64,000 bases of DNA from the NCBI RefSeq assembly GCF_000234805.1, contig NC_016645.1:968391-1032390 (forward strand). Reading direction: 5' to 3'. Source of the stretch: Pyrobaculum ferrireducens. Lineage in GTDB: Archaea > Thermoproteota > Thermoprotei > Thermoproteales > Thermoproteaceae. This document shows, one piece after another, positions 28,769 through 46,089 of the stretch (its first letter is position 1; each line of letters opens with the position of its first letter). The translations under genes were made by a program, and so were the position numbers. Under the pieces are notes generated by a model. That model was not told where the DNA came from, made no database searches, and worked only from the letters and a program-made list of their open reading frames with translations.

Positions 28769-29940
28769 TGGGACGCCGTTTTTTATCACCAGCCAGGCCT
28801 TGTTTCTGCCTAGTTCATATGCTAGCCAGTGGTAGTTAGGCACATCCCATATTACCAAGTCGGCTTTTTTGCCAGGCTTAATAACTCCTCTGTCTGTTAG
28901 GCGTAGGCTATACGCGGCATTGGCAGTGGCCGCAATTATCGCTTCCAATGGTGTGAGGCCTAGTAGATAGACTGCTTGCTCAATGGCCGTCTGCATGTTG
29001 AGACACCAGCTATTAGGACTGAAATCGGTGCCTATGGCAATGGGGACTTTCTGACGTCTAAGCTCCTCCACCGGCGGCCTCTTAGGTGTTCTCAGTGTGA
29101 ATATTGTAATGGGTAGCAATGTCGCTACGGCTCCGGATCTCGCAATTTTAGTCACGTTCTCTAGGGGTGTATTGAGGAGGTGATCTAGCGAATCTATTTG
29201 AAATTCTTCCACCAAGTCGCTACATCCTATATACTCAAATTCGTCTGCATGTAACCTGAGTCTATACCCAGCCTTGGTAGCTGTTTTGAAAAATGCTCTA
29301 GTTTCCTCTACGCAGAAGGCTATAGAGTCGCAGAACACATCTACATACGTCGTGCCGACTCTTGGAATGGCTTCAAGTATTTTTCTAACATATTCCTCTC
29401 TACCGGATGGCGGTGGGATGTGTATCAAAAAAGTCGTAACTATGTCTATGTCTACTTGTATTTTTTAATAATATTAACAAGTCTTAATTCTTCATCTATA
29501 TCTAGACCATAACCTGTTTTTATTTCTACTGTAGTTGTACCGAACTGCGCCGCTATTTCAACTCTTCTTTGGAGAATAGATGCTAGTTCTTTGTCTGTAG
29601 CTTGTTTTGTTTCTCTAATAGTTTTATAGATGCCACCGCCCTTCTTAGTAATTTCTTCATATGTCTCACCTTTGAGTTTTCTTTCTAGCTCGTCTTCTCT
29701 AGAGCCGGCGAAGAGCATGTGGGTATGGGGATCCACGAGGCCCGGCGTGATGAGTCTGTTGCCGAAGTCCCATACTTCCTCATTAGGGTATTTTCTCTTC
29801 AAATCCTCCCACTGACCGACGTCTATTATCACGCCGTTTTTTACCACAACTGCAGCGTCGTTGATAAGAGTAACAGGGTCGCCGTATGTCCATGGCATTT
29901 TTTCTGCTGAGACTAATTGCCTTGCTTTGATGATTACCAT
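28751..29940 (-). pseudogene. hutI: Imidazolonepropionase, interrupted by a one-base frameshift
   Basis: Third step of histidine breakdown: opens imidazolonepropionate to N-formimidoyl-glutamate. The N-terminal part (29940-29452) carries the amidohydrolase metal motif LVDPHTHMLF (H72, H74) and VEIKTGYGLD, then stops at TAG 29454-29452. The next frame resumes the family sequence without a gap: IQVDIDIVTTFLIHIPPPSG, continuing to 28751 with LHADEFEYIG and GTDFSPN. The two parts join at an A6 run (minus strand, 29466-29461) where seven As are needed; repaired, the protein would be 396 residues, the usual length. A sequencing error, a recent mutation or recoding are all possible. hutI starts inside the end of hutH. 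Confidence 0.88.
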
Positions 29941-32297: not shown

Positions 32298-32600
32298 TTA
32301 ATATATAAAAATTTTTCCATCGTAAGTACTCTCGACCGTAATCACACCCTCTGTTTTCTTTATTGTAACGATACGAGTTCTTTCTATAGCTAATCCACAT
32401 GACAGATATACGTAATGCTCATCGCTCCAAGCAAAGAACCTCCCATATGTTACTAGGCGGGAGCCCGGATTTTCCAAAACTAACTTTACGGCGTAACACA
32501 CACTTGGTGTTGAGATATGCGTAATCACAGAATAGAAGATGAATAAGGTTGTTACCGTGAGCGCGATGACACCGGCGAGTTCCACGATGTCTTCTATCAT
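32298..32600 (-). CDS. Hypothetical membrane-anchored small protein of the appendage locus
   Basis: 100 residues. One hydrophobic N-terminal helix (about 8-30, AGVIALTVTTLFIFYSV) followed by a beta-rich domain with two cysteines (SVCYAV, LSCGLA) that could form a disulfide outside the cell. There is no Arg-Gly class III cleavage site before the helix, so it is not a classical prepilin. It overlaps the upstream gene by four bases. Function unknown. Confidence 0.6.
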   Translation of the reverse strand: MIEDIVELAGVIALTVTTLFIFYSVITHISTPSVCYAVKLVLENPGSRLVTYGRFFAWSDEHYVYLSCGLAIERTRIVTIKKTEGVITVESTYDGKIFIY

Positions 32601-32860
32601 GGCTTGAACCTACAGATCAGAGCCAGCGTTTTGTATGAGAGACCTGGGGGGGTAGAGACAGTTTCATTATTGCATGAGACCAGCGGAGCTACTCTATAGA
32701 TCACAGCGGGGTCTCCACGCTCTGCATACTTATACGCCTCAGACCAGTAGAGAAAAACCGCAGATAGATCCGGCTTATTTACCTCGACAGGCTTGAGAAC
32801 TGACAAAGTAGCTACTGCCAGCCCAAAGATTATTGGTATGAGTGTCACGTCGAGCTTCAT
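32597..32860 (-). CDS. Hypothetical small exported or anchored protein of the appendage locus
   Basis: 87 residues. Residues 5-21 (VTLIPIIFGLAVATLSV) form a signal peptide or anchor; the rest is a small domain with two cysteines (LVSCNNET, LICRFKP) and an N-glycosylation sequon. No family recognised. It overlaps the next gene by ATGA, so the pair is coupled, and it lies 50 bases after the preceding gene. Confidence 0.6.
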   Translation of the reverse strand: MKLDVTLIPIIFGLAVATLSVLKPVEVNKPDLSAVFLYWSEAYKYAERGDPAVIYRVAPLVSCNNETVSTPPGLSYKTLALICRFKP

Positions 32861-32910
32861 GAAAGGGAAGGAGGTTTTGTGGGAAAAATCTTATAGGAGT
32901 TACGTGACGC

Positions 32911-33408
32911 TTAACATTTAATTATGTATAGCGTAACTTCGTAAGCCACCGCCCTATAGATAAACCTGGTTGTTATGACCTCTGGTTTAAATTCTGTACC
33001 AGATTTACATGTTGGTACGTAGTGAACAACGCGGTTTCCTTCGATTATTGGAAGCACATAGACGCATTGACCTAAGATCGCCGTGTTATTTCTAGAGGTG
33101 TATAAATAGCCCAGCAGATCGTCTATGGGTGGACAAGAGTTGCCAAATGCCACGGCGTAAAGCGCCGGCGTGGCGTCAGCTTGCGTTTTTGTGAGTACTA
33201 CTCCGTTATTGTTATAGTAGTAAGCTACTTTATATACCTCTATCATCACAGGATTATTTACATGGAAATTCTTACCAGCGGCTATGGACTTAGCTATGGC
33301 ATAGAGCTCCGGGTGTAGATTGTGTAGTGCATTCAACGCCGCTAGGACTACTGCAACCGTAGCCGCCGTAGATCCCACTATTATTAAGAGCTTTGTCAGC
33401 GTGTTCAT
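32911..33408 (-). CDS. Hypothetical membrane-anchored protein of the appendage locus
   Basis: 165 residues. One N-terminal hydrophobic segment (LLIIVGSTAATVAVVLAAL) then an exported domain with four cysteines (NSCPP, GQCVY, PTCKSG, IIKC). The ATG at 33408 overlaps the stop of the giant upstream gene by four bases, arguing for coupled translation; an in-frame extension to 33468 would lie inside that gene. No homologous family known to me. Confidence 0.65.
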   Translation of the reverse strand: MNTLTKLLIIVGSTAATVAVVLAALNALHNLHPELYAIAKSIAAGKNFHVNNPVMIEVYKVAYYYNNNGVVLTKTQADATPALYAVAFGNSCPPIDDLLGYLYTSRNNTAILGQCVYVLPIIEGNRVVHYVPTCKSGTEFKPEVITTRFIYRAVAYEVTLYIIKC

Positions 33409-36400
33409 GTTCCCGTGCGGATCACGGAGGGCGTGCCGTAGGGCGCGAACCCACCCTCGGCCCACCACTTAAACAGCAGAGCTGGCCTCGGCCGGTACAC
33501 CACGGCCTCGCCGCCGTCTTCAACTACGTAGCTAAAGTGGATTATGGGCACTACCAGCGCGGGATCCCACGGCCATATATAGGAGGCCCTTATAATAACC
33601 CGCGGCCCATGTACCACTTCTACTAGGCTCCAAGATCCGCCTCTCTGGAAGTAAACGGCATAGCCGACGACAGGCCCATCTGCCGTAATTAACACATCGC
33701 CTGTCGTTGCGTTGAGTAGCTCAAACCTCGGCTCTACGAACATGTCTCTAAGCCTCACTCTTGCAAACATATCTACAGCGCCCCAGAAGTCTCCGATCGC
33801 CGCGAGTTGCGAAACCGAGTCGCTGGCCTTTAGGAACGACTTGGCGTTGCTGACTGTAGTCACGACGCACTTCCTCTCGTACTGCCTACCCCCCTCGCCG
33901 AAGGGCGTGAAGCCGTGGAAGTAGGGCACGCCGTTTACGTACAAATACGCCGTGATCAGAGTCTGCCAGGTGTTGGTGCGATTCGGTGTCTCGGTTCTGC
34001 CCTCTATCCTCAGCGAGGCGGACTGCGGCGGCAGGACGAAGAAGGCGAAGTGGGTAGCGCCGCGGGAGTCGACGAGCTTCAGTTGCACGGGTCCCACCCA
34101 GTCGGTCGGCGCAACGTAGTAGCCGACTCTGCCCAATGCCTGCGACTGGCATGCGTCCAGAGCCGTGTAGTCCCTATACCAGCCGTACCCCACGTAGGCC
34201 GCGTCGAGGGGCTCCCACCTCCTCTTGGGGATGTGGACGAGGAGATCCCAATTCGCCTTTTTAGCCCCCATGGCGCTGTCCACCAAGATACCCTTCTCTA
34301 CGTATATCTTCAAGTCTGTCTCGGTCTCGTTGCCGATGTAGACAACCAAGAAGGCGTAGCCCGCCCCCGGCAGTGCGGCGTCCGCCGTCGGGCCCGGCGC
34401 AGGTCCCCACAGCCGCACGTTGAGGTTCGACGCAGTGCAGATCGTCCCGTCGCAGGCGGTGGCCGGGACTATGAAGATGTACCACGGGCTCGTTGAGTTG
34501 GACGCCATCGACGGCACGCCCAGAGGCAGGGCGTCGGTCCAGCCGGCGGGATGCTCCTCCCCGCCCCCGTACTTCTCAAACGCATAGTTGTAGAACTTCC
34601 AGCTGACTCCTGAGGCCGTCTGCTGGTACAGCCTGCGTTCGTCTGTCGTGTTTTTGTATTGCGAAACTCCGTACACCTCGCTGAGGAGGGAGACGGAGTG
34701 GGGGCCGGGCACAGGGCATGAACTCTCGATATCGAAGTCTCCGGTGCTCGGATTGAAGGCCCAGCACTGGAGGTTGTAGTAGTGGTCGAAGAATATGTAG
34801 GGGTCTCCCACCGCCGCAGACATGAAGTCGAAGAACGCCGTGCGGCCACTTATGAAAGTTTCGCTGGGCACTATCCAGTCCACCAGCCTCAGCTTGTTGA
34901 TGGGGAACTGAACGCCGCCCTGGGGGCCGACTTTGGCGTAGCCTACCCACGTCCCGTTTACTTTAGTAAATACGTGTTGCGAATACACGCAGTGGAATAA
35001 CGTGTTTTCCTGCTCGCACGGATTGGGAGGCGAGAACCATGCCGTCTGCAACGTGCTGTGGCTACCGTCTATTCCGAAGCTCACGCTCGTAAACCTAGGC
35101 CCCCTTATCCAGCCTGCTGTAGCAAGACCGTCGCTTTCATAAGCGAGCTTCCCCTCGGCGCCAGCCTCCTCGTATACTCTCGACAAGAGGTTGCCCGCGC
35201 CGTCCACGGCCCTCGGCCTCGTGACGCCGCTCCCTATCCAAGTGCTTTTGCTACCCGTCCTCACAAGCCAGGTAACCGCAACGGAGAGCCCGTAGGCGCT
35301 ACCCAGCGGCGCGTCGAGCTCCATATCGCGAGAGGCGAAGTAGAAATCCGCCACTTTTACGATGAGGTAGGGGGTCAGGCTCACGCCGGTTCTCTGGGCT
35401 ATGCTCGCCAGCGTGTCTTTCCAGACCCACCTGTCTCCCACCCACGTCGAGTTGCCCACCATGTCAATCAGAAAGCAACCCGGAGGACCAGGACATGCAT
35501 CTCTTAATTCACTTTTCATTACGACTCTGGAGACGTAGAGCGGGACAGGCTTCGGAGCAGACAGGCTCACGGCCCCCCAGTCTGTAGGAGATACATGGCC
35601 AGATATCGTTATTCTTGAGTTGAAGGGTTTGTTGGATACCCAACTCAACCTTTCTAAAACCGGATCCGCGTCTGTGGACACGCCGATTCTCGGGTACAGT
35701 TCGTTGTTGTGCCAGTCGGTGTAGTACCAGGAGTTAGGCACGGTGGCATTGGCCCCTCCGTACCTTACCACGGATCCCGGGCTGTATCTGTCTATTATAA
35801 GCGCCTTCCAGAGGGTGGGAGCGGAGCCGCTCTTCACCACGTTTTTGCTTGGCTCGTATCTGTTACACGACGGCCATGTACTCGCTGTGGGCTTATCGGT
35901 GCAGTACCCCCTAACCTCCACCGGTCCCACATTAGGCATCCACTCGTACTGGGGGAGATCCGGCAGTCTATTGGCTCTAAACGTCGTCTGGGAGCTGTAG
36001 AAGGCGCGGTCATGCGGTACGGTGAAGGTAATCGTCCGGGATACGCGGTCGGGTTCTCCGATCTTTTTGTAGAAGACGCCGTGCTCAACCCAGCAGTAGC
36101 CGTTGTAGCAAAGCCTCGCTTTGCAGTAGTACTTGTCAAAGGTCCACGACTGGTCGGGGTTGTAGTACTCTACAGATACGGAAAACGACAAGTCCCTATC
36201 CCATACAGCGCTACCGGCCACTCCCCAAACCGCAACTTTGGAGGAATTCAGAGCCCTGATCCCCCAGATGATGGCTGTCGAGTCGCCAGACCAGCTATAG
36301 CCGACGGAGGCGCCCGGGTGCAGAATGGTCGCAGTTGACATGTCGAAGGAGGCTGTCACGTCGTAGGGCGAGGCCAGCGAGGCGTTTGCGTAATTGGTAC

Positions 36401-36491
36401 AGTTTACGTTCTCGACCACAACTGTGTTCTGCGCTTGTGCCAGGTAAGCCACAAGTAAGGCCAGGACCAGCAGTCCGAGTGTGCCCCTCAT
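33405..36491 (-). CDS. Giant exported protein (1028 residues) of the appendage locus
   Basis: The product begins with a Sec-type signal peptide, MRGTLGLLVLALLVAYLAQA, with cleavage likely after AQA. The long remainder is rich in Tyr, Trp, Ser, Thr and aromatic beta-strand patterns, with many N-x-S/T sequons and about twenty cysteines. No transmembrane anchor was seen at the C-terminus and no domain was recognised. Size, secretion and place in the locus suggest an adhesin, sheath or tip protein; this is inference. An upstream in-frame extension (to 36578) lacks a signal peptide at its front, so ATG 36491 is preferred. Confidence 0.75.
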   Translation of the reverse strand: MRGTLGLLVLALLVAYLAQAQNTVVVENVNCTNYANASLASPYDVTASFDMSTATILHPGASVGYSWSGDSTAIIWGIRALNSSKVAVWGVAGSAVWDRDLSFSVSVEYYNPDQSWTFDKYYCKARLCYNGYCWVEHGVFYKKIGEPDRVSRTITFTVPHDRAFYSSQTTFRANRLPDLPQYEWMPNVGPVEVRGYCTDKPTASTWPSCNRYEPSKNVVKSGSAPTLWKALIIDRYSPGSVVRYGGANATVPNSWYYTDWHNNELYPRIGVSTDADPVLERLSWVSNKPFNSRITISGHVSPTDWGAVSLSAPKPVPLYVSRVVMKSELRDACPGPPGCFLIDMVGNSTWVGDRWVWKDTLASIAQRTGVSLTPYLIVKVADFYFASRDMELDAPLGSAYGLSVAVTWLVRTGSKSTWIGSGVTRPRAVDGAGNLLSRVYEEAGAEGKLAYESDGLATAGWIRGPRFTSVSFGIDGSHSTLQTAWFSPPNPCEQENTLFHCVYSQHVFTKVNGTWVGYAKVGPQGGVQFPINKLRLVDWIVPSETFISGRTAFFDFMSAAVGDPYIFFDHYYNLQCWAFNPSTGDFDIESSCPVPGPHSVSLLSEVYGVSQYKNTTDERRLYQQTASGVSWKFYNYAFEKYGGGEEHPAGWTDALPLGVPSMASNSTSPWYIFIVPATACDGTICTASNLNVRLWGPAPGPTADAALPGAGYAFLVVYIGNETETDLKIYVEKGILVDSAMGAKKANWDLLVHIPKRRWEPLDAAYVGYGWYRDYTALDACQSQALGRVGYYVAPTDWVGPVQLKLVDSRGATHFAFFVLPPQSASLRIEGRTETPNRTNTWQTLITAYLYVNGVPYFHGFTPFGEGGRQYERKCVVTTVSNAKSFLKASDSVSQLAAIGDFWGAVDMFARVRLRDMFVEPRFELLNATTGDVLITADGPVVGYAVYFQRGGSWSLVEVVHGPRVIIRASYIWPWDPALVVPIIHFSYVVEDGGEAVVYRPRPALLFKWWAEGGFAPYGTPSVIRTGT

Positions 36492-36525
36492 GGCGGCTCC
36501 CTCCGAAGCCTTGGAAAAAGCTTTC

Positions 36526-37281
36526 TTACTGTATTCCGGGCCACTGAGGAGTAGGCGTGTCGTTCGTCCTCTCCCCACCCTGCCGCGGTATGGAGAGGTA
36601 GGAGGTAAGGTTCTTACAACCGAGGAAGACGGTGGTGGGGTAGTCCACTACGACGACGCCGACGGCGCTCCTTGTGGTCAACACGTAGAGCCTAGAGTAG
36701 GTGCCGTTGGTGACGTAGGCCCACTCAGCCTTGTCGAGCCCAAACAGCCAAGACAACTTGACTACGTTAACGCTGTTCCACCTATCGACGGCGGATAGAA
36801 TCGGTCTGCTCTGCCGGTACGTCTGGTAGAGGTAGTCGGTCCAGTTCCACGCCGTTGGCGCCACGGCGTACACCTCAAACCACGGCGCCGGGTTGAGGGG
36901 GTATTTCACATCTATTTCGTAGAGCACGCCGGGCTCCCCATAGGCCTTGGCCGCGTAGAGGCTACACCTCGTGACGTTCAACACGGCGGTATATATGTAG
37001 TACTTGGCCTCCCCCTGCAGTTTATATGCCACCGGCACCCCCACAGTGAAGACCTCCCCTCTGGTAGTCGTCAAGTTCACCAAGACGTAGTACGAAACTC
37101 CCGCGTTTCTCCTGTACACGCCGAGGGAGTCTGTGAAGAAGTAGTCCGTGGCATTCCTCTTCGCCGCGTAGAGATCGGTCGCGGCGTTCAGCGGCTTCAT
37201 CTGAGTGGTGTGGAGCGCAGTATACAGGACAACTGCGGCCACAAGGGCCAGGGCGATGAAGCCGTAGGCCGTCGACCACAT
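36526..37281 (-). CDS. Hypothetical membrane-anchored exported protein of the appendage locus
   Basis: 251 residues. One N-terminal hydrophobic helix (YGFIALALVAAVVLYTAL) and a large exported beta-rich domain with sequons (NAT, NLT, NVT, NGT) and few cysteines. It lacks the class III site. It begins two bases after the upstream minor-prepilin gene and ends 34 bases before the giant exported gene. Perhaps a minor subunit or assembly partner; function unknown. Confidence 0.65.
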   Translation of the reverse strand: MWSTAYGFIALALVAAVVLYTALHTTQMKPLNAATDLYAAKRNATDYFFTDSLGVYRRNAGVSYYVLVNLTTTRGEVFTVGVPVAYKLQGEAKYYIYTAVLNVTRCSLYAAKAYGEPGVLYEIDVKYPLNPAPWFEVYAVAPTAWNWTDYLYQTYRQSRPILSAVDRWNSVNVVKLSWLFGLDKAEWAYVTNGTYSRLYVLTTRSAVGVVVVDYPTTVFLGCKNLTSYLSIPRQGGERTNDTPTPQWPGIQ

Positions 37282-37283
37282 AG

Positions 37284-38396
37284 CTAGCCCTCTCTACACA
37301 CCCTTTCGTATTTTACCGTAAACCTCGCGTTCATGGCGCCGTCGACTGCGGACTTGAAGTAGACGTCGGCGGTGTCGCCGCCCCACGTTAGGCTGACCGA
37401 GCCGCAGTGCCCGCTAGCCTTCACCACGGTCCCGTTTAAGCTCACCTCGTTGTGGCACCACCCTCTTATCCTCTCTAAATGCCACCTTCCGTCGTACCAC
37501 AGCCGCCACACCTCGTCGTAGTACAGAGCAAAGCCGTCGGGCGGATCACAACGCTGGCAGTCCTCCCAGGCGAGCAGGTAGTCTAGGAGCGCCCCCTTGT
37601 TGTCCACGTCAAAGTACGAAACTGGGTTGACGTATATCCTCGCCCTTGTCGAGCCCGCGCTCCAGTAGGCAGTGAGGTTGAACACCTTCAGCGCCGTGGG
37701 CCTGTAGTCGTCCGGATCGCTCCCTTGCAGGAGGATGTAATTGGAGCCGGAGACCGCGGACTCCGTCTTGACGATAACGGTTTTACGGACCTCCATCCGG
37801 GGCAGGCTGGAGTTGCCGGGGAAAACAGCCTCTACGTAGTACGTGCCTTCGGGCGGCGGCTTGACGTCTATACAGACCCAGAACCACGTATTCGCGGTTT
37901 TATAGGCTGAGCGTGGTCCCCATATCGAGGCGGTAACGGGCAGGGCGATTTGACCCCAGCCGTCTGAGGCGTCCACGAAGACGCATCCCGTGCGGCAGAA
38001 GGCGCTTGTGTCCAGCGCCAGTCCCGGCCTCCCGGCGACGAACTGGCCGAACCTCGACGCCGAACCGTCGCAGGATACGTAGATGATGCCGTCGACTACC
38101 CACAAGTACATTTCGCCTACGCATGTGGCGTTTTGACCCGGCGCCAGGGGGTAGCCTCCGAAGTACGCCCAGCCGAACCTTGCCAGTTGTCTACCCGCTG
38201 ACTCTACGGCGGCGTACGAGTCGTACTGCTTGACCACGTAAGGCCCCACAAGCTTAAAGGCGCAGTCGGAGCATGTGGGCACCTCCGAGGGGCCCTCCCT
38301 CACCGGGTAGAGTTGTGTTATTATGGCCACCGCCATTGCCATTAGCCCGGCGAAGATTGTGATGTCTCTAAGCGTTGTCAACCCCCTCATGGACAT
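37284..38396 (-). CDS. Prepilin-like protein with class III signal and large exported domain
   Basis: 370 residues. The start MSMRGLTTLRDITIFAGLMA shows Arg-Gly followed by Leu-Thr-Thr and a hydrophobic helix, the pattern cut by archaeal prepilin peptidase; the same RGLTT begins the major pilin 1.5 kb upstream. After the helix comes a domain of about 330 residues with eleven or more cysteines (CSDC, CRTGC, CQRC), far larger than a pilin head. It is likely a minor or tip pilin. Two ATGs (38396, 38390) are possible; the second gives an ATGA overlap with the preceding gene. Confidence 0.65.
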   Translation of the reverse strand: MSMRGLTTLRDITIFAGLMAMAVAIITQLYPVREGPSEVPTCSDCAFKLVGPYVVKQYDSYAAVESAGRQLARFGWAYFGGYPLAPGQNATCVGEMYLWVVDGIIYVSCDGSASRFGQFVAGRPGLALDTSAFCRTGCVFVDASDGWGQIALPVTASIWGPRSAYKTANTWFWVCIDVKPPPEGTYYVEAVFPGNSSLPRMEVRKTVIVKTESAVSGSNYILLQGSDPDDYRPTALKVFNLTAYWSAGSTRARIYVNPVSYFDVDNKGALLDYLLAWEDCQRCDPPDGFALYYDEVWRLWYDGRWHLERIRGWCHNEVSLNGTVVKASGHCGSVSLTWGGDTADVYFKSAVDGAMNARFTVKYERVCREG

Positions 38397-38836
38397 CTGT
38401 ACTGCACCACCAGCCATCTCCCCTTCGAGGCTACGTTGACCGGAACGCAACTGGGATCCACCCTGGCGTCAAAAGGCGGGGGGCACCAGAGTCCCGTGTA
38501 TGGATCGCCAATTCTTACAGGTCTTCTGCCGTAGAGCTCGCATCTATACCCACCTGGATAGACATAAAACTTGGCGACCAGCACGCCAGGTACGCCGACT
38601 CCCTGGCGGAACTGCTCGGCATCGGGGCCCACGTACTCCATCATGTAATACCTCGTGTGATTGTATCTGTCAATCACGGCGTATACATACAGCGACCTAG
38701 TGGGTACGTTGTCCCCGGGCTCGGCCGGCGCCTCGATGTACGCGGAGGGGAGGTAGGGCCTCGCCACCAGCGCCGCGAATAGGAACAGGGCCGCCAGCCC
38801 TGTGATAAAAACAGATGCCGATATGAAATCCTCCAT
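38387..38836 (-). CDS. Hypothetical membrane-anchored protein of the appendage locus
   Basis: 149 residues. An N-terminal hydrophobic helix (ISASVFITGLAALFLFAALV) and an exported domain with five cysteines, including CELYG, WCPPP and QYRCP. No class III site. It overlaps the next gene slightly and begins 36 bases after the coiled-coil gene. No family recognised. Confidence 0.62.
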   Translation of the reverse strand: MEDFISASVFITGLAALFLFAALVARPYLPSAYIEAPAEPGDNVPTRSLYVYAVIDRYNHTRYYMMEYVGPDAEQFRQGVGVPGVLVAKFYVYPGGYRCELYGRRPVRIGDPYTGLWCPPPFDARVDPSCVPVNVASKGRWLVVQYRCP

Positions 38837-38872
38837 GGAAAAAGGGAGGAGGGGATGGAAAAACCTTAGAGG

Positions 38873-39844
38873 TTATTCAGACTGCCGCCTCCTAACGTAT
38901 ACAACGGCGCCAATGACGCCACCTAAGGCGATGAGCAACATTGGTATCAGCCACCCCGTCCCGTTGCCCTCCTCCTTGGCGCTGAGCTGTGACTGGAGCT
39001 GCGCCAGCTGAGACTGGAGCTGGCTCACCTGCAAGGCGTGTGTTCTGTTCAGCTCCTCCATCCTCTTCAGGAGCGCGTCCTTTTTAGACAAGATGTCGCT
39101 CAGCCTCTTCTTCAGATCTTCAATCTCGTTGTTCTGGGCTTGGATCTTTGCGTTCAGCGCAGTTATCAACTGCTCTCTTTGTTTGAGGAGCTCCTCAAGC
39201 TTCGTCTTCTCATCACTCAACGTCTTCACCTTATCTGACAGCTGCTGCAGGAGATTCCCTAGCGCGGTGCTGTTGGCGAGGGCTCTGCCAAGCTCGGCTT
39301 TTATCTCGTCAAGCGTCCGGACCAGCCGATCGTACTCCACGTAAAGCGATGTGTTGCCCGGAGGCACCTTAACCACAGTCTTCGTACTTAAGTGGAGATA
39401 CCACCCCTCGGGAGCCATTTCGGAGAAGTTGCCCACCGGCGTCGTGAAGTTACCTGTAGCGTTGGCAAGGTTCACCAGCCCCACATAGGCCGCTAAGCGA
39501 AGGGGAAGCCACTTTAGCCAGAGCCACACACGTCCATCGTGCGAACAGTATATGTTTGACCTCACCAACACGCCGCCCTCTATTGGGGTTATGTTCAGCG
39601 GCTCGACAGACACATACCTGCAGACCTGAGATATATATGTCAACGCCGCCTGCGCCTCTCTCCCATCTCCTCTAAACTCTATGCCATCCTGTATGTAGTA
39701 CAGCGTGGTCGCGCCGTAATATTCCACAAAGTGTGTAGCGTTTAGCGGGTAGGCTGCGGCTAGGTAAGCATGCGGTGGATGCCAGCTGATAAACTGCGCC
39801 AGTGCCAGACCTGTAGCGATTAGAAATACTAACCACCAATTCAT
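38873..39844 (-). CDS. Exported coiled-coil stalk protein with C-terminal membrane anchor
   Basis: 323 residues in a clear order: signal peptide (1-16, WWLVFLIATGLALA), a globular exported domain (about 20-165) with two cysteines and sequons, a long coiled coil (about 170-290; LSDEKTKLEELLKQREQLI and similar heptads), a Gly-rich joint, one membrane helix (WLIPMLLIALGGVIGAVVYV) and a short basic cytoplasmic tail (RRRQSE). This layout suits a stalk or tether on the cell surface, as in some archaeal envelope proteins. Not a pilin. Confidence 0.72.
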   Translation of the reverse strand: MNWWLVFLIATGLALAQFISWHPPHAYLAAAYPLNATHFVEYYGATTLYYIQDGIEFRGDGREAQAALTYISQVCRYVSVEPLNITPIEGGVLVRSNIYCSHDGRVWLWLKWLPLRLAAYVGLVNLANATGNFTTPVGNFSEMAPEGWYLHLSTKTVVKVPPGNTSLYVEYDRLVRTLDEIKAELGRALANSTALGNLLQQLSDKVKTLSDEKTKLEELLKQREQLITALNAKIQAQNNEIEDLKKRLSDILSKKDALLKRMEELNRTHALQVSQLQSQLAQLQSQLSAKEEGNGTGWLIPMLLIALGGVIGAVVYVRRRQSE

Positions 39845-39891
39845 GACTGGGGGGAGCTGGGGGTTGAAAAAACTTTGAAAAATTGTTTGAC

Positions 39892-40359
39892 TTAAGAAAT
39901 CCCCGCAGATACTACACCTTTTGCTATTTGTACGGCTTTGCCAGTGCCGTCGTAACCAATAATTACATACACATACTGCGTACCTGGACTCAGCTGCGCG
40001 CTAAATCTACACGTAGCCGACTGCCCAGCCACCAGCTGTAGCTGGCTTGGCTGTATGCCTGTTGAGACGCTCCCACCACTCGCCTTTGCACATGAGCCTT
40101 GGGTTATCGTCTGCAACGTCGGAGAGCCGGCCTGCCCATACTGAAGGGCGAGGCCTTGTAGCTTGCCGTTTAGCACCTCGACTGTTACATCAAAACCCCC
40201 TCTGTCGGCTGTAGCTATTGCGTTAGCTCTCAGGGCCTCGGCCGCGGATTTTCCAATTTGTTGAAATGTCAACGCGCCTATTACGCCCACAATTATGAAG
40301 CCAGCGGCTATCAACAGCGCCTCCACAGTTGTTAACCCCCTGAACTTGTGTTTAGGCAT
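39892..40359 (-). CDS. Type IV pilin precursor (probable major pilin)
   Basis: 155 residues. The leader MPKHKFRG ends in the class III cleavage site, followed by the hydrophobic helix LTTVEALLIAAGFIIVGVIG that packs the filament core. The C-terminal domain is small, beta-rich and has two cysteines that could form one disulfide (GSCAKA, ATCRFS). Length and layout fit archaeal T4P pilins such as those known to form Pyrobaculum filaments. ATG 40359 fits a leaderless start behind the TATA at 40377-40391; ATG 40371 would add four residues. Confidence 0.85.
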   Translation of the reverse strand: MPKHKFRGLTTVEALLIAAGFIIVGVIGALTFQQIGKSAAEALRANAIATADRGGFDVTVEVLNGKLQGLALQYGQAGSPTLQTITQGSCAKASGGSVSTGIQPSQLQLVAGQSATCRFSAQLSPGTQYVYVIIGYDGTGKAVQIAKGVVSAGIS

Positions 40360-40376
40360 ATCACGGCTCATCTCAA

Positions 40377-40391
40377 GGGGGAAAAATTTTG
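40377..40391 (-). promoter_or_regulatory. Possible separate promoter of the major pilin
   Basis: Minus-strand CCAAAATTTTTCC lies about 20-30 bases before ATG 40359, in one of the few gaps (56-68 bases) of the locus. A private promoter would allow much more pilin than assembly proteins. Confidence 0.4.
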
Positions 40392-40427
40392 GAAATCCTC
40401 TTTTCCAACAACTCCGCCTAACCTGTT

Positions 40428-41627
40428 CTAGAGGAGTAGTTGAAGACCTTGTTGTAGTGCCATGCCGACGGCCCCTCCCAGCGTTGTGGAGTGGTGTATC
40501 CCCAGCGCCGATAGGAAAATCGCGATGTAGCTCGCCGCTATCAGCGACATGGCTTGGGACACCACATGTTTAACCACATCGTAGGGGGGAGGGGTGAAGA
40601 AGGGGTTGTAGCCGCTCTCCAGGCCGGACAGCGCCTTAGCCGCTGTGGACACAGAGTAGGCGAGTATGCCCACAGCCGCGATAAACAACGCGAAGTATGC
40701 CGCCGAGAGCTTCACAGTCTTCTTCACTGCGACGTTTTCCATGTCTACCACCGTCTGGATGTACTCCACGGCCTTCACGGCGGCGGCGCCGCCGGCCTCC
40801 ACGATGGCGCGGTACATCGACTTAGCCAAGACGAAGTATCTTGATGGTATGAAGTAGCCGTAGGCAATCTTGGCGGCTACCCTAAACCTCCCAGACAGCC
40901 TCGCAACGATGAGGTCGGGAGGCGCCCCCTCCTTGAGCATAGCCGCGGCGGCTCTAAGCATTGGGGGCACCTCCTGTCTTATCCTAAACCACCACAGCTT
41001 GTCCTTAGCCCTAAGCCAGGCGGTGGCCGCGGCGCCGAAGGCTAAAAACGAGGCCACTGGAGACGCGAGTAGACCTGCGATAGCCGCGGCGAGGGCTCCC
41101 AGGGGTAGGGACCACTCGTAGGTCTTCCACAGCGACAAGTCCCTCGGCGTCGTGGCCACGGCCGCGGCCCCCGTCGAGGCTGTGACTCCTAGAATCAACA
41201 GCAACAGGTAGGTGGGTTCTATACTCAAGACGCCGATGGCCCACATGAAGAGGAGGAATAGCGGGAGTAGAAACAGCGCGCCCAGCGCGTTGACTAGAGA
41301 CTCATATATACGAAGCCTAGCCTCGATTCTAGACACGGCGGCGGATCTAGACGACTCGAGGAAGGAATGTACTAATATAGACCTGTCTACGCCAGCCTCC
41401 TCCTGCGCCAAGGCGTATCCAAAGTGTCTGGCCACCTCCAGCCTATCCTCAAGGAAGAGGGCAGACGGCGACGGCATTAGAGAAGCCACAAATAGCCTCC
41501 TGCTCTCCTCCTCATCCAGCTCAGCTGTGTTAAGCGCGGTGTATTTCAAAGCCTCGTTGCCAGATACGACGCCTAGATATGTGGCGAAGACAGGAACGGC
41601 GGCTAGGTAGAAATCCTCACGGCGCAT
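40428..41627 (-). CDS. Type IV pilus/Tad platform membrane protein (TadC/GspF-like)
   Basis: 399 residues with about seven hydrophobic segments and T2SF-like helical cytoplasmic blocks (VPPMLRAAAAMLKEGAPPDL). The arrangement suits the inner-membrane platform that couples the ATPase to pilin insertion. Archaeal platform proteins often contain two such blocks; here the N-terminal block is short, so half of the usual length may be missing or diverged. It sits between pilin and ATPase genes, as expected. Confidence 0.72.
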   Translation of the reverse strand: MRREDFYLAAVPVFATYLGVVSGNEALKYTALNTAELDEEESRRLFVASLMPSPSALFLEDRLEVARHFGYALAQEEAGVDRSILVHSFLESSRSAAVSRIEARLRIYESLVNALGALFLLPLFLLFMWAIGVLSIEPTYLLLLILGVTASTGAAAVATTPRDLSLWKTYEWSLPLGALAAAIAGLLASPVASFLAFGAAATAWLRAKDKLWWFRIRQEVPPMLRAAAAMLKEGAPPDLIVARLSGRFRVAAKIAYGYFIPSRYFVLAKSMYRAIVEAGGAAAVKAVEYIQTVVDMENVAVKKTVKLSAAYFALFIAAVGILAYSVSTAAKALSGLESGYNPFFTPPPYDVVKHVVSQAMSLIAASYIAIFLSALGIHHSTTLGGAVGMALQQGLQLLL

Positions 41628-41656
41628 GGAGAGGGGAGACGCGCCGTGGAAAAACC

Positions 41657-41998
41657 TTAGATTAGGTTGGAGAGCACCTCCCGTATGTGGGCGAGCTTCC
41701 CAGCCTTCTCCACAGCCGCCGGCAACTCCCTCACGGCCTGTGCCGCCGAGGCGCCGGAGGCCACCCGGCGTATGATGTAGTTCACAACCATGTCTATGTG
41801 TTTATCTAGATCCACAAGCCTCGCCGCGAGGCGCCAGTCCTCGGCCTCGAGCCAAATGCCGTGTCTAGCCAGCTTAAGCACAGCCTTCCACAGCCTCGAC
41901 TCCCTAACGCCAAGTTCCTTCGCCAACTCGCAGAGCCACCGCGCTGTGTGTACGGTAAAGCCCCTTCGCACGGCGTCCTTCTCCACTTTGCACATCAC
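41657..41998 (-). CDS. Hypothetical soluble helical protein of the appendage locus
   Basis: 113 residues, mainly helical (RWLCELAKELGVRESRLWKAV). No membrane segment and no known domain. The start ATG overlaps the stop of the preceding gene by four bases, and the end is 29 bases before the platform gene, so it belongs to the operon. It could be a cytoplasmic regulator or an ATPase partner. Confidence 0.55.
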   Translation of the reverse strand: MMCKVEKDAVRRGFTVHTARWLCELAKELGVRESRLWKAVLKLARHGIWLEAEDWRLAARLVDLDKHIDMVVNYIIRRVASGASAAQAVRELPAAVEKAGKLAHIREVLSNLI

Positions 41999-42261
41999 CT
42001 CGCCAGGAGGAGCAAGGCGAGTTTAACCATGGGATCGTCGCCTCTGCTCCTCAGGGCCTCGATTAACACCTCCCGCGGAAGGCAGTGGATAACCTTGGCG
42101 GCCAACTCCTCAGGCATCTCCGCCAAGGCCGTCGCAAGGTGGGTCGCCCAGGTCTGCTGGCCCGCCTGCCGCGTCGAGTGGTTCGAAACCTCTACGCCGC
42201 TTTGCAGAGCCGAGTCGCCCCCCGTCTGTATAAGCTCCGCCAAGTTCCGCCTCTTAATCAT
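41995..42261 (-). CDS. Hypothetical small protein of the appendage locus
   Basis: 88 residues, soluble, helical C-terminal half (EELAAKVIHCLPREVLIEAL). No family recognised. It begins 30 bases after the ATPase gene and overlaps the next gene by four bases. The N-terminal third is of low complexity (Gln, Ser, Gly), so the true start may be later. Confidence 0.5.
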   Translation of the reverse strand: MIKRRNLAELIQTGGDSALQSGVEVSNHSTRQAGQQTWATHLATALAEMPEELAAKVIHCLPREVLIEALRSRGDDPMVKLALLLLAR

Positions 42262-42291
42262 AGCCCGGTGTACAGCCTAGGCAGAAAAATA

Positions 42292-43827
42292 TTAGACATA
42301 GCCGAACCTAGCCGCCTCCTCCTCAAGTATAGACTTGAAATCCACCCTATCTAGCCACAACATCTCCACAATAGCAGACCTAGCCGACATGGGGTCCTCC
42401 ACCTCGCCGGCCTTGACCAGGGCTTCTATCCTCAGCGCGAGCTCCCTCCGCAAATCGACGCCGTACATCTCCTCGACGTATGAGGCTACGCGCGGCGTCA
42501 GCTCCGCCAGGTCCACCACCTTCACCTCCCGGCCGCCGGCCACCACAGCCTTCGCCTCCTTAACATACCTGGCGCCGCCCACAGCAGATAGCTGAATTAC
42601 AAGCGTGCCGTCTAGCCCCTCGGGCGGCGCCTCGGCCTCTGTGATGCGCAACAGGACGTCCCTCACTGTGTCTGCGTGCATCGTCGTAAGGGCGCCGTGG
42701 CCCGTGAGTTTGTAGTTCACCAACGTGCGTAGCTCCTGCGGAGTCCTGGCCTCGGCTAGAGCCACCACGGTATGCATCGTGCCGTAGCGCAGGGCCTGGT
42801 CGAGGGCGGCCCACAGCTTGTCTTCAGACGGCACAGAGATGTGAAGCAACTGGCCGTCGAGGGGGGCCCAGATCTCCCTAGCCCCCCTCTCCACCACCAC
42901 CACCTGGAACCAAGGCGGGACTAGGTACAGAAGCTGGTTCAGCTGCGTCGTTTTTCCCGACCCCATCCCTCCTGAGAAGAAAACGCTACCCCTCATCTCT
43001 AAGACAAGAGAGGCCAAAGCCAGAACCTCAAGCCCCTCTGGCCGGTGGACCGGGCCCCGTGCGGCGTACTCTTCAGCCACCTTCGGCTTCGTCGTGTAGG
43101 GCTTCAGCAGAGATTTAGAGGGCTTCGGGACTGCCGACATCTTCCTTATGTTCACGTTGTACTCCAGCAGATCTGCGGCTATCCTCGCCTTGTTCACCGG
43201 ATCCTCCCTCGTGAGCATGGGACGGTCCATGGTGAGGGAAGGGAGCAACTGCTTCACCACGACGTACATAAGGGGCTCCGGGATAACTATGTTGGTGGGC
43301 ATCCTCACCTCGTTACGCACAGCCACCACCCTCCGGTATCGCCCAAGCTCCACCATCTGGAACTTGATATACTCCAACTGCTCCCTCAGCGACTTGGGCA
43401 CGTAGGTGTACTTAGCCGCCGGTGCCGTCGGTTGCGGTATGACGATCTCCGTGAGGAGGGGATCCCGCATCAGCGCCTCCAGCGCCCCGTAGCCCATATA
43501 CTCCCTAGCCCCCGACCAGCGGTCGAGGAGGTAGTGCACCACCTCTCTGTAATCCTTGTACATCGCCCACACCGCGCGGTCTCTCAGGCCCTCCGCAACA
43601 GACTTGATAAGCTTGGGGTACTCCCTCTCGTCAGGCGGCACGGCGCCGCGGAACATAATAAGGAGGAGAGCCGTCTGCAGGTCATCCGGCACCTCTGGAT
43701 CTATGACGACGTACATCATGTCGTCTGTAATGCAGACGTCGGTCCTCACCCCCCTATCCACAAGCACCCCCTCCCGCCTAAGCCAGCAACGGCTTTTTAA
43801 AGTAGAGTCGGCGTGGGCGTAGATCAT
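42292..43827 (-). CDS. Secretion/pilus assembly ATPase (TadA/VirB11/GspE superfamily)
   Basis: 511 residues. The N-terminal 260 residues form the family-specific domain; the ATPase core carries Walker A GGMGSGKTT (about 286-294), an acidic Walker B equivalent in TVVALAEARTPQEL, and the His box TGHGALTTMHAD. It powers pilin extraction from the membrane. It overlaps the ParA-like gene by ATGA, implying matched production. The lysine and serine/threonine of Walker A are intact. Confidence 0.9.
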   Translation of the reverse strand: MIYAHADSTLKSRCWLRREGVLVDRGVRTDVCITDDMMYVVIDPEVPDDLQTALLLIMFRGAVPPDEREYPKLIKSVAEGLRDRAVWAMYKDYREVVHYLLDRWSGAREYMGYGALEALMRDPLLTEIVIPQPTAPAAKYTYVPKSLREQLEYIKFQMVELGRYRRVVAVRNEVRMPTNIVIPEPLMYVVVKQLLPSLTMDRPMLTREDPVNKARIAADLLEYNVNIRKMSAVPKPSKSLLKPYTTKPKVAEEYAARGPVHRPEGLEVLALASLVLEMRGSVFFSGGMGSGKTTQLNQLLYLVPPWFQVVVVERGAREIWAPLDGQLLHISVPSEDKLWAALDQALRYGTMHTVVALAEARTPQELRTLVNYKLTGHGALTTMHADTVRDVLLRITEAEAPPEGLDGTLVIQLSAVGGARYVKEAKAVVAGGREVKVVDLAELTPRVASYVEEMYGVDLRRELALRIEALVKAGEVEDPMSARSAIVEMLWLDRVDFKSILEEEAARFGYV

Positions 43828-44528
43828 GCCGTCTTTATACGTGCCAGTATCTGGTCAACCGCCTTTCTATTATCCCTGTCCCTCAACACGTCGTTCGCCA
43901 CCGCCTCTCCGTAGTACTCCCCAATCGCCACTCTCTTTACGGCAATAGGCGTGATTTTCCTCGCCATCTTCAACTCATCCCTCTCCAAGAGGTTCACGGC
44001 GACGAGAGAGGAGTAGGCCATGTAGCGGCGGTACTGCTCAGCCTTGACGTCGGATATACGCGCGATAAGCCGGCGATCGGCAATGAAGATGTTGTAGACA
44101 CCCATCTGCTGTAGCCTAGACAGCACCTCCAGCCTCAGCGCCGCCGTACTGTCTATGAAGACAGTGTCCACAGGTAAGCGCAACTTAGTCACGAACTTAG
44201 GCAGGTGTTCAACCCACTCAAGCATAGCCTCGACGAAGTCCCCCACCACGTCCTCGCCCATCCTCTGATAGATCTCATAAGCCTCGTACCCCGGCATGAC
44301 GTAGAGCATTGGCGACACTCTATGGACGTAGGGCAACTCCCCTCTGAGAAACGGCGCCAGCCACCCCGCCTTCCTCGGCACTCTAAACAGCTGAGATAAA
44401 TCGCTCTTTTCCCAATCCATGTCAACCAGCAGAGACAGCCCCTTCTTCACTCCAAGCACCGTGGCTATGGTTGTCTTCCCCACCCCGCCGTCTAGAGAAG
44501 AGACCAGCACCACCTTCACCTGCCTCAT
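43824..44528 (-). CDS. ParA/MinD-superfamily ATPase, TadZ/CpaE-like
   Basis: 234 residues. VVLVSSLDGGVGKTTIATVLG is a P-loop of the SIMIBI class (quoted without its last residues), followed by LLVDMDWEKSDLSQLF (switch I-like) and TVFIDSTAALRLEVL (Walker B-like). The signature lysine of the deviant Walker A (KGG) is replaced by Asp13, as in several TadZ-type relatives that have lost strict dimer-coupled hydrolysis. In bacterial Tad systems TadZ places the pilus at the pole. The ATGA overlaps on both sides tie it to the secretion ATPase. Confidence 0.82.
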   Translation of the reverse strand: MRQVKVVLVSSLDGGVGKTTIATVLGVKKGLSLLVDMDWEKSDLSQLFRVPRKAGWLAPFLRGELPYVHRVSPMLYVMPGYEAYEIYQRMGEDVVGDFVEAMLEWVEHLPKFVTKLRLPVDTVFIDSTAALRLEVLSRLQQMGVYNIFIADRRLIARISDVKAEQYRRYMAYSSLVAVNLLERDELKMARKITPIAVKRVAIGEYYGEAVANDVLRDRDNRKAVDQILARIKTA

Positions 44529-44824
44529 ATCAAAGCCGCAAGTCTCTTGTAGACGTAGTCCACGGCGGCGTATTTCAAAGCGGCGCCGTCCGCCACAGCC
44601 CCGATCTCCTTCTTAAACCTATTAAGCAAATTAGCCGCGGTCTTCGCATCCGACAGCTCTGACAGCCTTAGAAGAGACGGCCTAAGCTTCACCCCACGCC
44701 CCTTTACATTCAGCATGGCAATCCTCGCCGCTATACACAAATCTCTGTAGCTACGGTAAAACTCCTCCCCTCTACACAAATCAAGCAAAGCTTTGAGGAG
44801 CCTGTGGGTTTTTTCATCAAACAT
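44525..44824 (-). CDS. Hypothetical small helical protein upstream of the ParA-like gene
   Basis: 99 residues from ATG 44824; an in-frame extension to 44878 lies within the preceding gene. Helical and basic (RDLCIAARIAMLNVKGRG). No family recognised. It overlaps the ParA-like gene by ATGA and the upstream gene by eight bases, so it is part of the operon. Confidence 0.55.
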   Translation of the reverse strand: MFDEKTHRLLKALLDLCRGEEFYRSYRDLCIAARIAMLNVKGRGVKLRPSLLRLSELSDAKTAANLLNRFKKEIGAVADGAALKYAAVDYVYKRLAALI

Positions 44825-45413
44825 AACACTCACGCAACCTCTCGGGATCCTCCACAACCCGCCTAACCACCTCGACATACGAGGGATCTCTCTCCATCAA
44901 ATCCGTAAGAACCTTCACAAGCTCGTTTATCAGCCACCCCCCGCCGCCGCGGCCCTCCTCACGCACCACGGCTGGCCTGCGGCCAGCCCTTTCCGCAAGC
45001 CTCTGGATGATGGCATGGGGCTCTTCGCAGACCAGTGGGTATTCGCCGCACAGCCCCGCGAAGCGGATAACCTCCGGGTTGAGCTGAAACAGCGGCAGTC
45101 TGTCCACCGAGACGGCGAACTCAACCAGCGTCTTAACCGCCTGCCGAACTCTCGACATAGGAAACCGCCTTGTGAAAGTCGCAACGGGACACCTGACAAC
45201 CCCCGGCTTAACCCGCCCATACACCAAGTTCAACGTATCGAAAACCGCGGCGACGTACACCACTACAGGCCCCTCGCCGCACCGCTCGTCCACAGTTGCC
45301 GGATCTGCCATGTACTCCTCCTTGAGGAGGTAAACCCCCCTAGGCGGTTGCCCCCAGTACATCTCCCACCCGGCGCCCAGCCAAGACCTTACCTGGCTTA
45401 TAGACGCCTCCAT
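44817..45413 (-). CDS. Hypothetical soluble protein of the appendage locus
   Basis: 198 residues from ATG 45413 (an upstream in-frame extension to 45497 sits inside the previous gene). It contains several cysteines (RCGEGP, VRCPVA, GLCGEY, VCEEPH) and a mixed alpha/beta pattern; no membrane segment. No domain recognised. It begins four bases after the preceding gene's stop. Confidence 0.55.
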   Translation of the reverse strand: MEASISQVRSWLGAGWEMYWGQPPRGVYLLKEEYMADPATVDERCGEGPVVVYVAAVFDTLNLVYGRVKPGVVRCPVATFTRRFPMSRVRQAVKTLVEFAVSVDRLPLFQLNPEVIRFAGLCGEYPLVCEEPHAIIQRLAERAGRRPAVVREEGRGGGGWLINELVKVLTDLMERDPSYVEVVRRVVEDPERLRECYV

Positions 45414-45417
45414 GGCG

Positions 45418-46089
45418 CTACGACGGTTCGTACAAAACCTTGGCGGCGCCGTGTTTTGTACGGCTCGCTGTATCGTACACGTCGCGGTACCTCCCAAGCG
45501 CCATATCTATATGAGCCATCCGGCCCGTGTCCAGCCAGTACAGCCACTCCGCCAGGTGTCTATTGCGCCGGTCCCTCCACCGGCTCCACGCAACCCATGA
45601 GTAGCCCCGTGCCCAAGCCAGCTCCCTAAGCCAGAGCGGGAAGGCGCTCCTAAACACCTCAAGTGGCCTGCTCCTCGGGACGGCTGAAACCCACTTGAAG
45701 AGGGTAGGCGCCCTGCTACGCCATATGTACCTCCGCCCCCCGTCGCTCAACACAGTTAGTAGATAGCAGGGTGAGACCTGCAACCGCACGTCTATCACTC
45801 CGTTGCCCGCCACTGGCGGCCACCGCGCCCTCCAACGAGGCTCCACAAAGCCACCCTCTACATACAGCACCCACTCCCTCCCGAACCTCCCCCCGACCCT
45901 CAACCCCCTTAGGCCAAGCTGAAACGCCTCGGGGTTCTCGGCCGCGTACCTCACAAGACCGTCTACGTCCGCGGCCACGTGTCTAAACCTCCTCAACAGC
46001 TCCTTCACGAAATCCTCCCCCAGCAAATCTACCCAATCCCCGGGATTGTAGTGGAGGAATATACAGGGATCAACCCGTGGTCTATACAC
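45418..46089 (-). CDS. Hypothetical protein, first gene of the appendage operon
   Basis: 223 residues, basic, Trp/Arg-rich, no membrane segment. No family recognised. The GTG start at 46089 lies about 20 bases after a clear minus-strand TATA box, GGTGTTTAAAATAGG (46115-46101), which should drive the whole block down to 32298 unless internal promoters exist. Located 38 bases after the tRNA-Ala gene. Confidence 0.55.
   Translation of the reverse strand: MYRPRVDPCIFLHYNPGDWVDLLGEDFVKELLRRFRHVAADVDGLVRYAAENPEAFQLGLRGLRVGGRFGREWVLYVEGGFVEPRWRARWPPVAGNGVIDVRLQVSPCYLLTVLSDGGRRYIWRSRAPTLFKWVSAVPRSRPLEVFRSAFPLWLRELAWARGYSWVAWSRWRDRRNRHLAEWLYWLDTGRMAHIDMALGRYRDVYDTASRTKHGAAKVLYEPS

Follow-up and report, generated by a model that had tools for sequence, protein, structure and literature searches.

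A type IV pilus locus of Pyrobaculum ferrireducens consistent with subclade 4G, with relatives of its cytoplasmic genes in Ted DNA-exchange loci

The pilus locus and its gene content

The stretch of DNA analysed here, hereafter the window, comprises 64,000 nucleotides of the archaeon Pyrobaculum ferrireducens (contig NC_016645.1, positions 968,391 to 1,032,390) and carries a type IV pilus (T4P) locus made up of 17 minus-strand open reading frames (ORFs), g1 to g17, which tile the window from position 46089 to 32298 in the ORF list (Table 1). Gaps between the genes range from -80 to +56 bp, and 10 of the 16 junctions overlap or lie at most 4 bp apart. A preliminary description had counted sixteen co-oriented, mostly overlapping genes; the orientation and the packing were borne out and the count is corrected to 17. 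The gene order is found again in other Pyrobaculum genomes and, in diverged form, in Thermoproteus, and the gene for a MinD/ParA-like ATPase (g4, hereafter ParA) lies directly upstream of the pilus ATPase gene (g5) in all 15 pilus loci examined. The locus is therefore not a chance arrangement, and the archaeal-type surface pilus locus with a conserved ParA partner, as first proposed, is upheld.

Pfam recognises the ATPase and, weakly, ParA, most of the remaining products being without a family. The predicted secretion ATPase was readily recovered in g5 (Pfam T2SSE, E=7e-10), which is 73-98% identical to its counterparts in Pyrobaculum pilus loci and 52-54% identical to those in Thermoproteus; full-length matches above 870 bits are confined to these two genera (the copy in genome G040 being split), the next best match scoring about 80 bits. 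In G040 (C1:865-875 kb), other sequence of roughly 7.5 kb splits a Thermoproteus-type pilus ATPase gene near codon 141. The platform protein of the preliminary description is retained as a candidate, g8, which has five hydrophobic segments and no match to Pfam or any other family, and is named from its position, its topology and the 2016 description cited below. The two proteins with class III-type signals are g9 and g12, both clear and both of the form RG/LTT, and the signal motif of g9 is kept among its orthologues in the alignment. The g9 pilin profile has a weak match (E=0.005) to 9myg, an archaeal pilin. PilA of P. arsenaticum (structure 6W8U) was considered as a product of this locus and rejected, being matched by neither the g9 pilin nor its profile. 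Hydrophobic segments at both termini and coiled-coil Pfam matches characterise g10, while g14 has a signal peptide-like start, 16 Cys and 27-62% identity between species. No peptidase was found among the 17 genes.

Judged from its sequence, the locus fits, gene by gene, the subclade 4G T4P of Pyrobaculum and Thermoproteus. This pilus has already been described from genomes, and the suggestion of an undescribed system is accordingly withdrawn. Section 14 of a 2016 paper by Makarova, Koonin and Albers (PMC4858521) presents the 4G system of Pyrobaculum and Thermoproteus as a complex one. Its ATPase (arCOG05609) and TadC (arCOG05611) are both diverged, its pilins are of the PilA type (arCOG05612) and its FleN/MinD ATPase is a distinct one (arCOG05608); it further includes two small, helical proteins of the cytoplasm and two large proteins. 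A 2019 paper reported significant profile similarity between TadZ and arCOG05608, and in the published tree the group 4 systems of Crenarchaeota fall with Bas and Ups and separately from Epd and Tad (PMC6668835). A full-text literature search for the four 4G arCOGs returned only these two papers. The window locus, from the same genera, has the diverged ATPase, the PilA pilin and the distinct MinD ATPase, with g8 as a candidate for the diverged platform; g6 and g7 would correspond to the two small helical proteins, and g14 and g10, the latter with its C-terminal transmembrane (TM) segment, to the two large surface proteins, Cys-rich parts being a further likeness. It differs in that the main text of PMC4858521 mentions neither g1-g3 as a unit, nor conjugation, nor VirB4-type ATPases.

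Table 1. Genes of the pilus locus, with positions in the window; a slash marks the signal boundary, and "Ted-shared" denotes relatives in Ted loci
Gene	Position	Strand	Product
g1	45418..46089	-	223 aa, cytoplasmic, Ted-shared
g2	44817..45497	-	226 aa, start possibly further in; cytoplasmic; Ted-shared in G038
g3	44525..44878	-	117 aa, Ted-shared
g4	43824..44528	-	MinD/ParA-like ATPase; best fit arCOG05608
g5	42292..43827	-	T4P assembly ATPase, VirB11/PilB superfamily; best fit arCOG05609
g6	41995..42261	-	88 aa, cytoplasmic, Ted-shared
g7	41657..41998	-	113 aa, cytoplasmic, Ted-shared; also in Thermoproteus pilus loci
g8	40428..41627	-	Candidate platform (TadC-like) membrane protein; best fit arCOG05611 by position and description
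g9	39892..40371	-	159 aa, major PilA-type pilin; class III signal KFRG/LTTVEALLIAA
g10	38873..39844	-	Secreted coiled-coil protein, C-terminal TM; candidate S-layer-like/stalk anchor
g11	38387..38836	-	Candidate minor pilin; N-terminal hydrophobic segment; kept in pilus loci
g12	37284..38450	-	Candidate minor pilin, MRG/LTTLRDITIFAGL, 12 Cys
g13	36526..37281	-	Candidate minor pilin; N-terminal hydrophobic segment
g14	33405..36578	-	1057 aa, secreted, Cys-rich; candidate adhesin/tip protein
g15	32911..33468	-	Candidate minor pilin; hydrophobic segment 23-48
g16	32597..32860	-	Small membrane/pilin-like
g17	32298..32600	-	Small membrane/pilin-like; last gene

Cytoplasmic genes common to the pilus and Ted loci

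Ted is the DNA-exchange system of the Thermoproteales, derived from a type IV secretion system (T4SS) and built on TedA, TedB and TedC (PMC9905601). None of these three is encoded in the window locus, and the nearest TedB gene of the window genome lies more than 0.7 Mb away. Relatives of g1, g2, g3, ParA, g6 and g7 are present in Ted loci. Beyond the pilus loci, g4 has its closest relatives in the ParA genes of Ted loci (52-75% identical), and ParA genes outnumber pilus ATPases: P. ferrireducens has three pilus-type ParA genes against one full-length pilus ATPase, and its near relative, genome G035, has seven ParA matches (two being pieces of one gene at contig ends) against one. The extra copies lie in recurrent cassettes of the order g1'-g2'-g3'-ParA-g6'-g7'-small P-loop ATPase-TedB-like HerA/VirB4 ATPase-HerA-like ATPase-SWIM protein-RecA-like protein. 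These cassettes are identified as Ted loci because the Ted locus of P. calidifontis contains the same set of genes, with a TedC that corresponds to PDB 8DFT (7.5e-64); genes for a 7-TM TedA and for TedC are also present in one P. ferrireducens locus (L040) and one G035 locus (L042). The Ted copy at L040 is without g1-g3, g6 and g7.

Hidden Markov models (HMMs) of the shared genes were built only from pilus loci and then run on Ted loci. The g1 model detected the P. calidifontis (E=3e-24) and G038 (1e-32) Ted loci as well as those of P. ferrireducens and G035; the g2 and g3 models detected the G038 Ted locus (4e-18 and 6e-11, respectively); and, in the P. ferrireducens and G035 Ted loci, the ParA model found matches, the g6 model gave E values of 1.6e-22 to 2.8e-20 (5e-17 in the metagenome-assembled genome (MAG) Bin S10) and the g7 model 9e-27 to 4e-19. 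Profile-profile comparison with hhalign gave probabilities of 95.6-99.9% for g1 between pilus and Ted profiles, 98.3% (G038) and 77% (P. calidifontis) for g2, and 97.1%, 94.9% and a marginal 43% for g3 against three Ted-side sets, as against 1.3% or less for off-position profile controls. No hhalign match was obtained between g2 and the gene at the same position in the P. ferrireducens and G035 Ted loci.

The ParA reported for Ted (PMC9905601) appears to be the VirC1-like protein beside TedB, which carries the signature Lys in several loci; this protein and the pilus-type ParA are two different proteins. In P. calidifontis, the canonical Ted locus has the VirC1-like protein in place of a pilus-type ParA. 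The g4 protein matches Pfam CbiA weakly (0.0019), NCBIfam archaeal MinD (3.5e-4) and, at profile level, MinD in PDB (8.5e-6), its nearest solved relatives being archaeal MinD proteins, and its profile matched no TadZ structure in PDB at E<0.01. The ParA-like partner of the preliminary description stands, and its TadZ-like character is reduced to the published profile similarity. The Walker A motif of g4 is deviant (DGGVGKTT), with Asp in place of the signature Lys; as this residue, D13, does not vary among the 22 aligned copies, formation of a classical ParA sandwich dimer is questionable, and a docking or placement role would be expected. In the ParA tree the Ted copies are nested among Pyrobaculum pilus copies and the best tree requires at least two changes of context; a tree forcing the Ted ParAs into one clade is not rejected (approximately unbiased test, p-AU 0.11), so that the number of context switches is unsettled. 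No relatives of the pilus-type ParA were found in viral contigs, plasmids or phages, and PADLOC gave no match for ParA, g1, g2 or g7. AlphaFold2 models of ParA and g1, built on few input sequences, were poor (predicted local distance difference test, pLDDT, 47.5 and 49.3) and support no claim on fold; a Foldseek search with the ParA model returned nothing at E<0.001.

Several further observations concern the ParA and Ted loci. The ParA genes of two contigs labelled as a Candidatus Calditenuaceae MAG (L005, L009) share 75% and 65% identity with that of the window; these contigs also carry Ted-type neighbours and are likely mis-binned Thermoproteaceae DNA. A STAND-like NTPase of about 1360 aa and a divergent 155-aa gene often precede Ted loci (L041:1876-6497, L040, L046, L047, L092, L097), possibly as a guard or regulator of Ted. 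The P. ferrireducens Ted copy at 2.32 Mb (L092:6738-11840) has g1' in two frames, g7' in pieces and no detectable ParA, and looks partly decayed.

Linked pilus and Ted loci

In two genomes the 4G pilus and Ted are fused. P. oguniense has a second pilus operon, with all genes from ParA through g17, within a Ted locus on one contig (L007 and L090), with genes in the g1'-g3' positions upstream and, downstream, a small gene of the 102-aa type followed by VirC1-like, TedB, HerA-like, SWIM, RecA-like, TedC and TedA genes, the pilus and Ted genes all being on one strand; its TedC has a match at 3e-9 to 8DFT, the solved pilin of P. calidifontis. In the Thermoproteaceae MAG Bin S10, two contigs joined through an exact 127-bp overlap give the order g1-g3-ParA-ATPase-g7-TadC-PilA...g17-g6-VirC1-like-TedB. 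Linkage extends to another family: the complete genomes G015 and G018, which we take to be of the Vulcanisaeta type, have, in one run and on one strand, genes for a T4P ATPase, a membrane protein, class III-signal proteins, ParA and TedB; upstream of these lies TedC in G018 and TedA in G015, and G017 has the ATPase, ParA and TedB on two contigs. A 95/92 branch of the ATPase tree has the Pyrobaculum/Thermoproteus clade and the Vulcanisaeta clade on the same side, which is compatible with 4G. The Vulcanisaeta membrane protein was considered as a sequence relative of g8 and was not supported. Two membrane proteins listed for Vulcanisaeta/Caldivirga loci (PMC4858521) may be TedA and TedC.

Ted loci are multi-copy (three in P. 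ferrireducens, five in G035). The left flanks of two G035 copies have 97-98% identical matches in P. ferrireducens at 70-74 kb and 1824-1830 kb, sites at which no TedB was found; this flank comparison reveals presence/absence polymorphism of Ted loci between the two genomes. One further tested flank is mostly missing from P. ferrireducens. No attachment or terminal repeats were found around the P. ferrireducens Ted loci, no TedB relatives in plasmids, and no plasmid or phage form of Ted; Ted as an integrative element therefore stays a hypothesis. A sequence of about 300 bp upstream of a G035 Ted copy (L045:6950-7560) occurs about 10 times in P. ferrireducens at 76-93% identity, dispersed over G000 positions including 326901, 438285, 1240440, 247719 and 2430574.

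Thermoproteus pilus loci have ParA-ATPase-g6-g7 and no g1-g3. In Ted loci, g1-g2 occur without a pilus-type ParA in P. calidifontis and, with g3 in addition, in G038. The simplest history would be insertion of a pilus operon into a Ted locus and a later split, after which the window locus would have retained g1-g3 with the pilus, and the P. ferrireducens and G035 Ted loci ParA-g6-g7. The window locus may thus be the pilus half of a once-composite locus that is still present in P. oguniense and Bin S10.

In the window, the pilus locus is flanked upstream by a cobalamin adenosyltransferase gene and downstream by an arginase/agmatinase-like gene, as read from the sequence. Further along, an imidazolonepropionase-like gene beside histidine ammonia-lyase (28751-29940, minus strand) has a frameshift near 29440-29455 that leaves its halves in different frames, either as a pseudogene or through a sequence error.

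Proposed role of the pilus and alternative explanations

With this gene content, its conservation, the shared genes and the physical linkage, we propose, at a probability of about 0.5, that the locus encodes a complete 4G archaeal T4P for cell-cell contact, which supports DNA exchange by Ted and shares a control or docking set with it. Going by their families, g5 would power and g8 anchor the assembly of the g9 pilin, with g11-g13 and g15-g17 as probable minor pilins and g10 and g14 as putative large surface proteins, and g1-g2-g3-ParA-g6-g7 may constitute the control or docking set of both machines. The contact role is suggested by analogy. Ups works with Ced in the Sulfolobales (PMC9905601, PMC7064770), and T4P of the conjugative plasmid TP114 (IncI2) and the island PAPI-1 are used for mating contact (PMC9045228, PMC5297154). 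As with Ups and Ced, a T4P would be expected to serve contact and a T4SS-like pore to serve DNA; unlike Ups and Ced, which are separate systems, the 4G T4P and the T4SS-derived Ted have cytoplasmic genes in common and can occupy a single locus. TP114 and PAPI-1 likewise combine a T4P and a conjugative system on the same element, but their pili are bacterial and no sequence relation is claimed. That the 4G pilus is a dedicated part of Ted, a T4P and T4SS composite in which one ParA-centred cytoplasmic set serves both machines and the pilus supplies the mating contact for which Thermoproteales had been supposed to have no pilus, is advanced more tentatively, at somewhat less than even odds. A link between the 4G pilus and Ted was not found in the literature, and is new and testable.

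Under a crude random-placement model, linkage of the two systems in 5 of 12 genomes compares with 0.17 expected (P=3e-7), and in 3 of 9 with 0.13 expected (P=2e-4) when Vulcanisaeta is collapsed. Several points weigh against the proposed partnership, beginning with the fact that this test and its distance threshold were set after the data had been seen. The Ted-linked Vulcanisaeta ATPases are nearest to their own unlinked paralogues, and forcing them together with the Pyrobaculum copies alone is rejected; linkage may therefore have arisen more than once, with a possibly separate origin in Vulcanisaeta. The pilus and Ted lie far apart in the window genome and in P. calidifontis. Seven genomes more than 90% complete (G027, G029, G030, G032, G036, G041, G042) have a 4G pilus and no TedB detected by two queries, while the MAGs G037 and G038 have Ted without a 4G pilus. 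No experimental study of the 4G pilus by expression, microscopy or DNA transfer was found in the literature.

The same seven genomes, together with the absence of g1-g3 from Thermoproteus pilus loci and the mixing of pilus and Ted copies in the ParA tree (one Ted clade not being rejected), would be expected of an ordinary adhesion or biofilm T4P of the Thermoproteaceae that has no functional connection with Ted; the genes in common would then be a regulatory cassette of a general kind, moved between co-resident operons by recombination. This explanation is a real possibility, if a somewhat doubtful one, and leaves unexplained both the six same-order genes common to one specific other system and the linkage in two families. 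An unlikely origin is the capture of the contact apparatus of a Ted-type mobile element, a mating pilus that the host retained once the transfer half had gone; the multiple copies of Ted, its absence at two sites with nearly identical left flanks and the composite order in P. oguniense, in which the pilus could be cargo, would suit it, but the pilus is commoner than Ted in the family, occurs in Thermoproteus and so appears to predate the Ted copies in the host, and no terminal repeat, plasmid or phage relative was found. The Tad-like reading of the preliminary description, in which a TadZ-type localisation ATPase would make the locus an archaeal counterpart of bacterial Tad (type IVc), is very improbable: an ATPase, a candidate platform and a ParA-superfamily partner are shared features, and the constant place of ParA beside the ATPase and the published TadZ-arCOG05608 profile similarity speak for it, but the locus has one platform gene (g8) rather than a TadB/TadC pair, a PilA-family rather than a short Flp pilin, no TadV-like peptidase, no outer-membrane parts, and a ParA nearest to archaeal MinD.

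The proposed partnership of the 4G pilus with Ted bears on an order previously reported to lack both Ups and Ced (PMC9905601). Ted is known in the Thermoproteales; for contact between their cells, the link points to a candidate pilus, together with the six genes in common. If it is true, the use of a T4P alongside a T4SS for DNA exchange would be a recurring pairing, present in two orders of archaea as well as in conjugative plasmids of bacteria.

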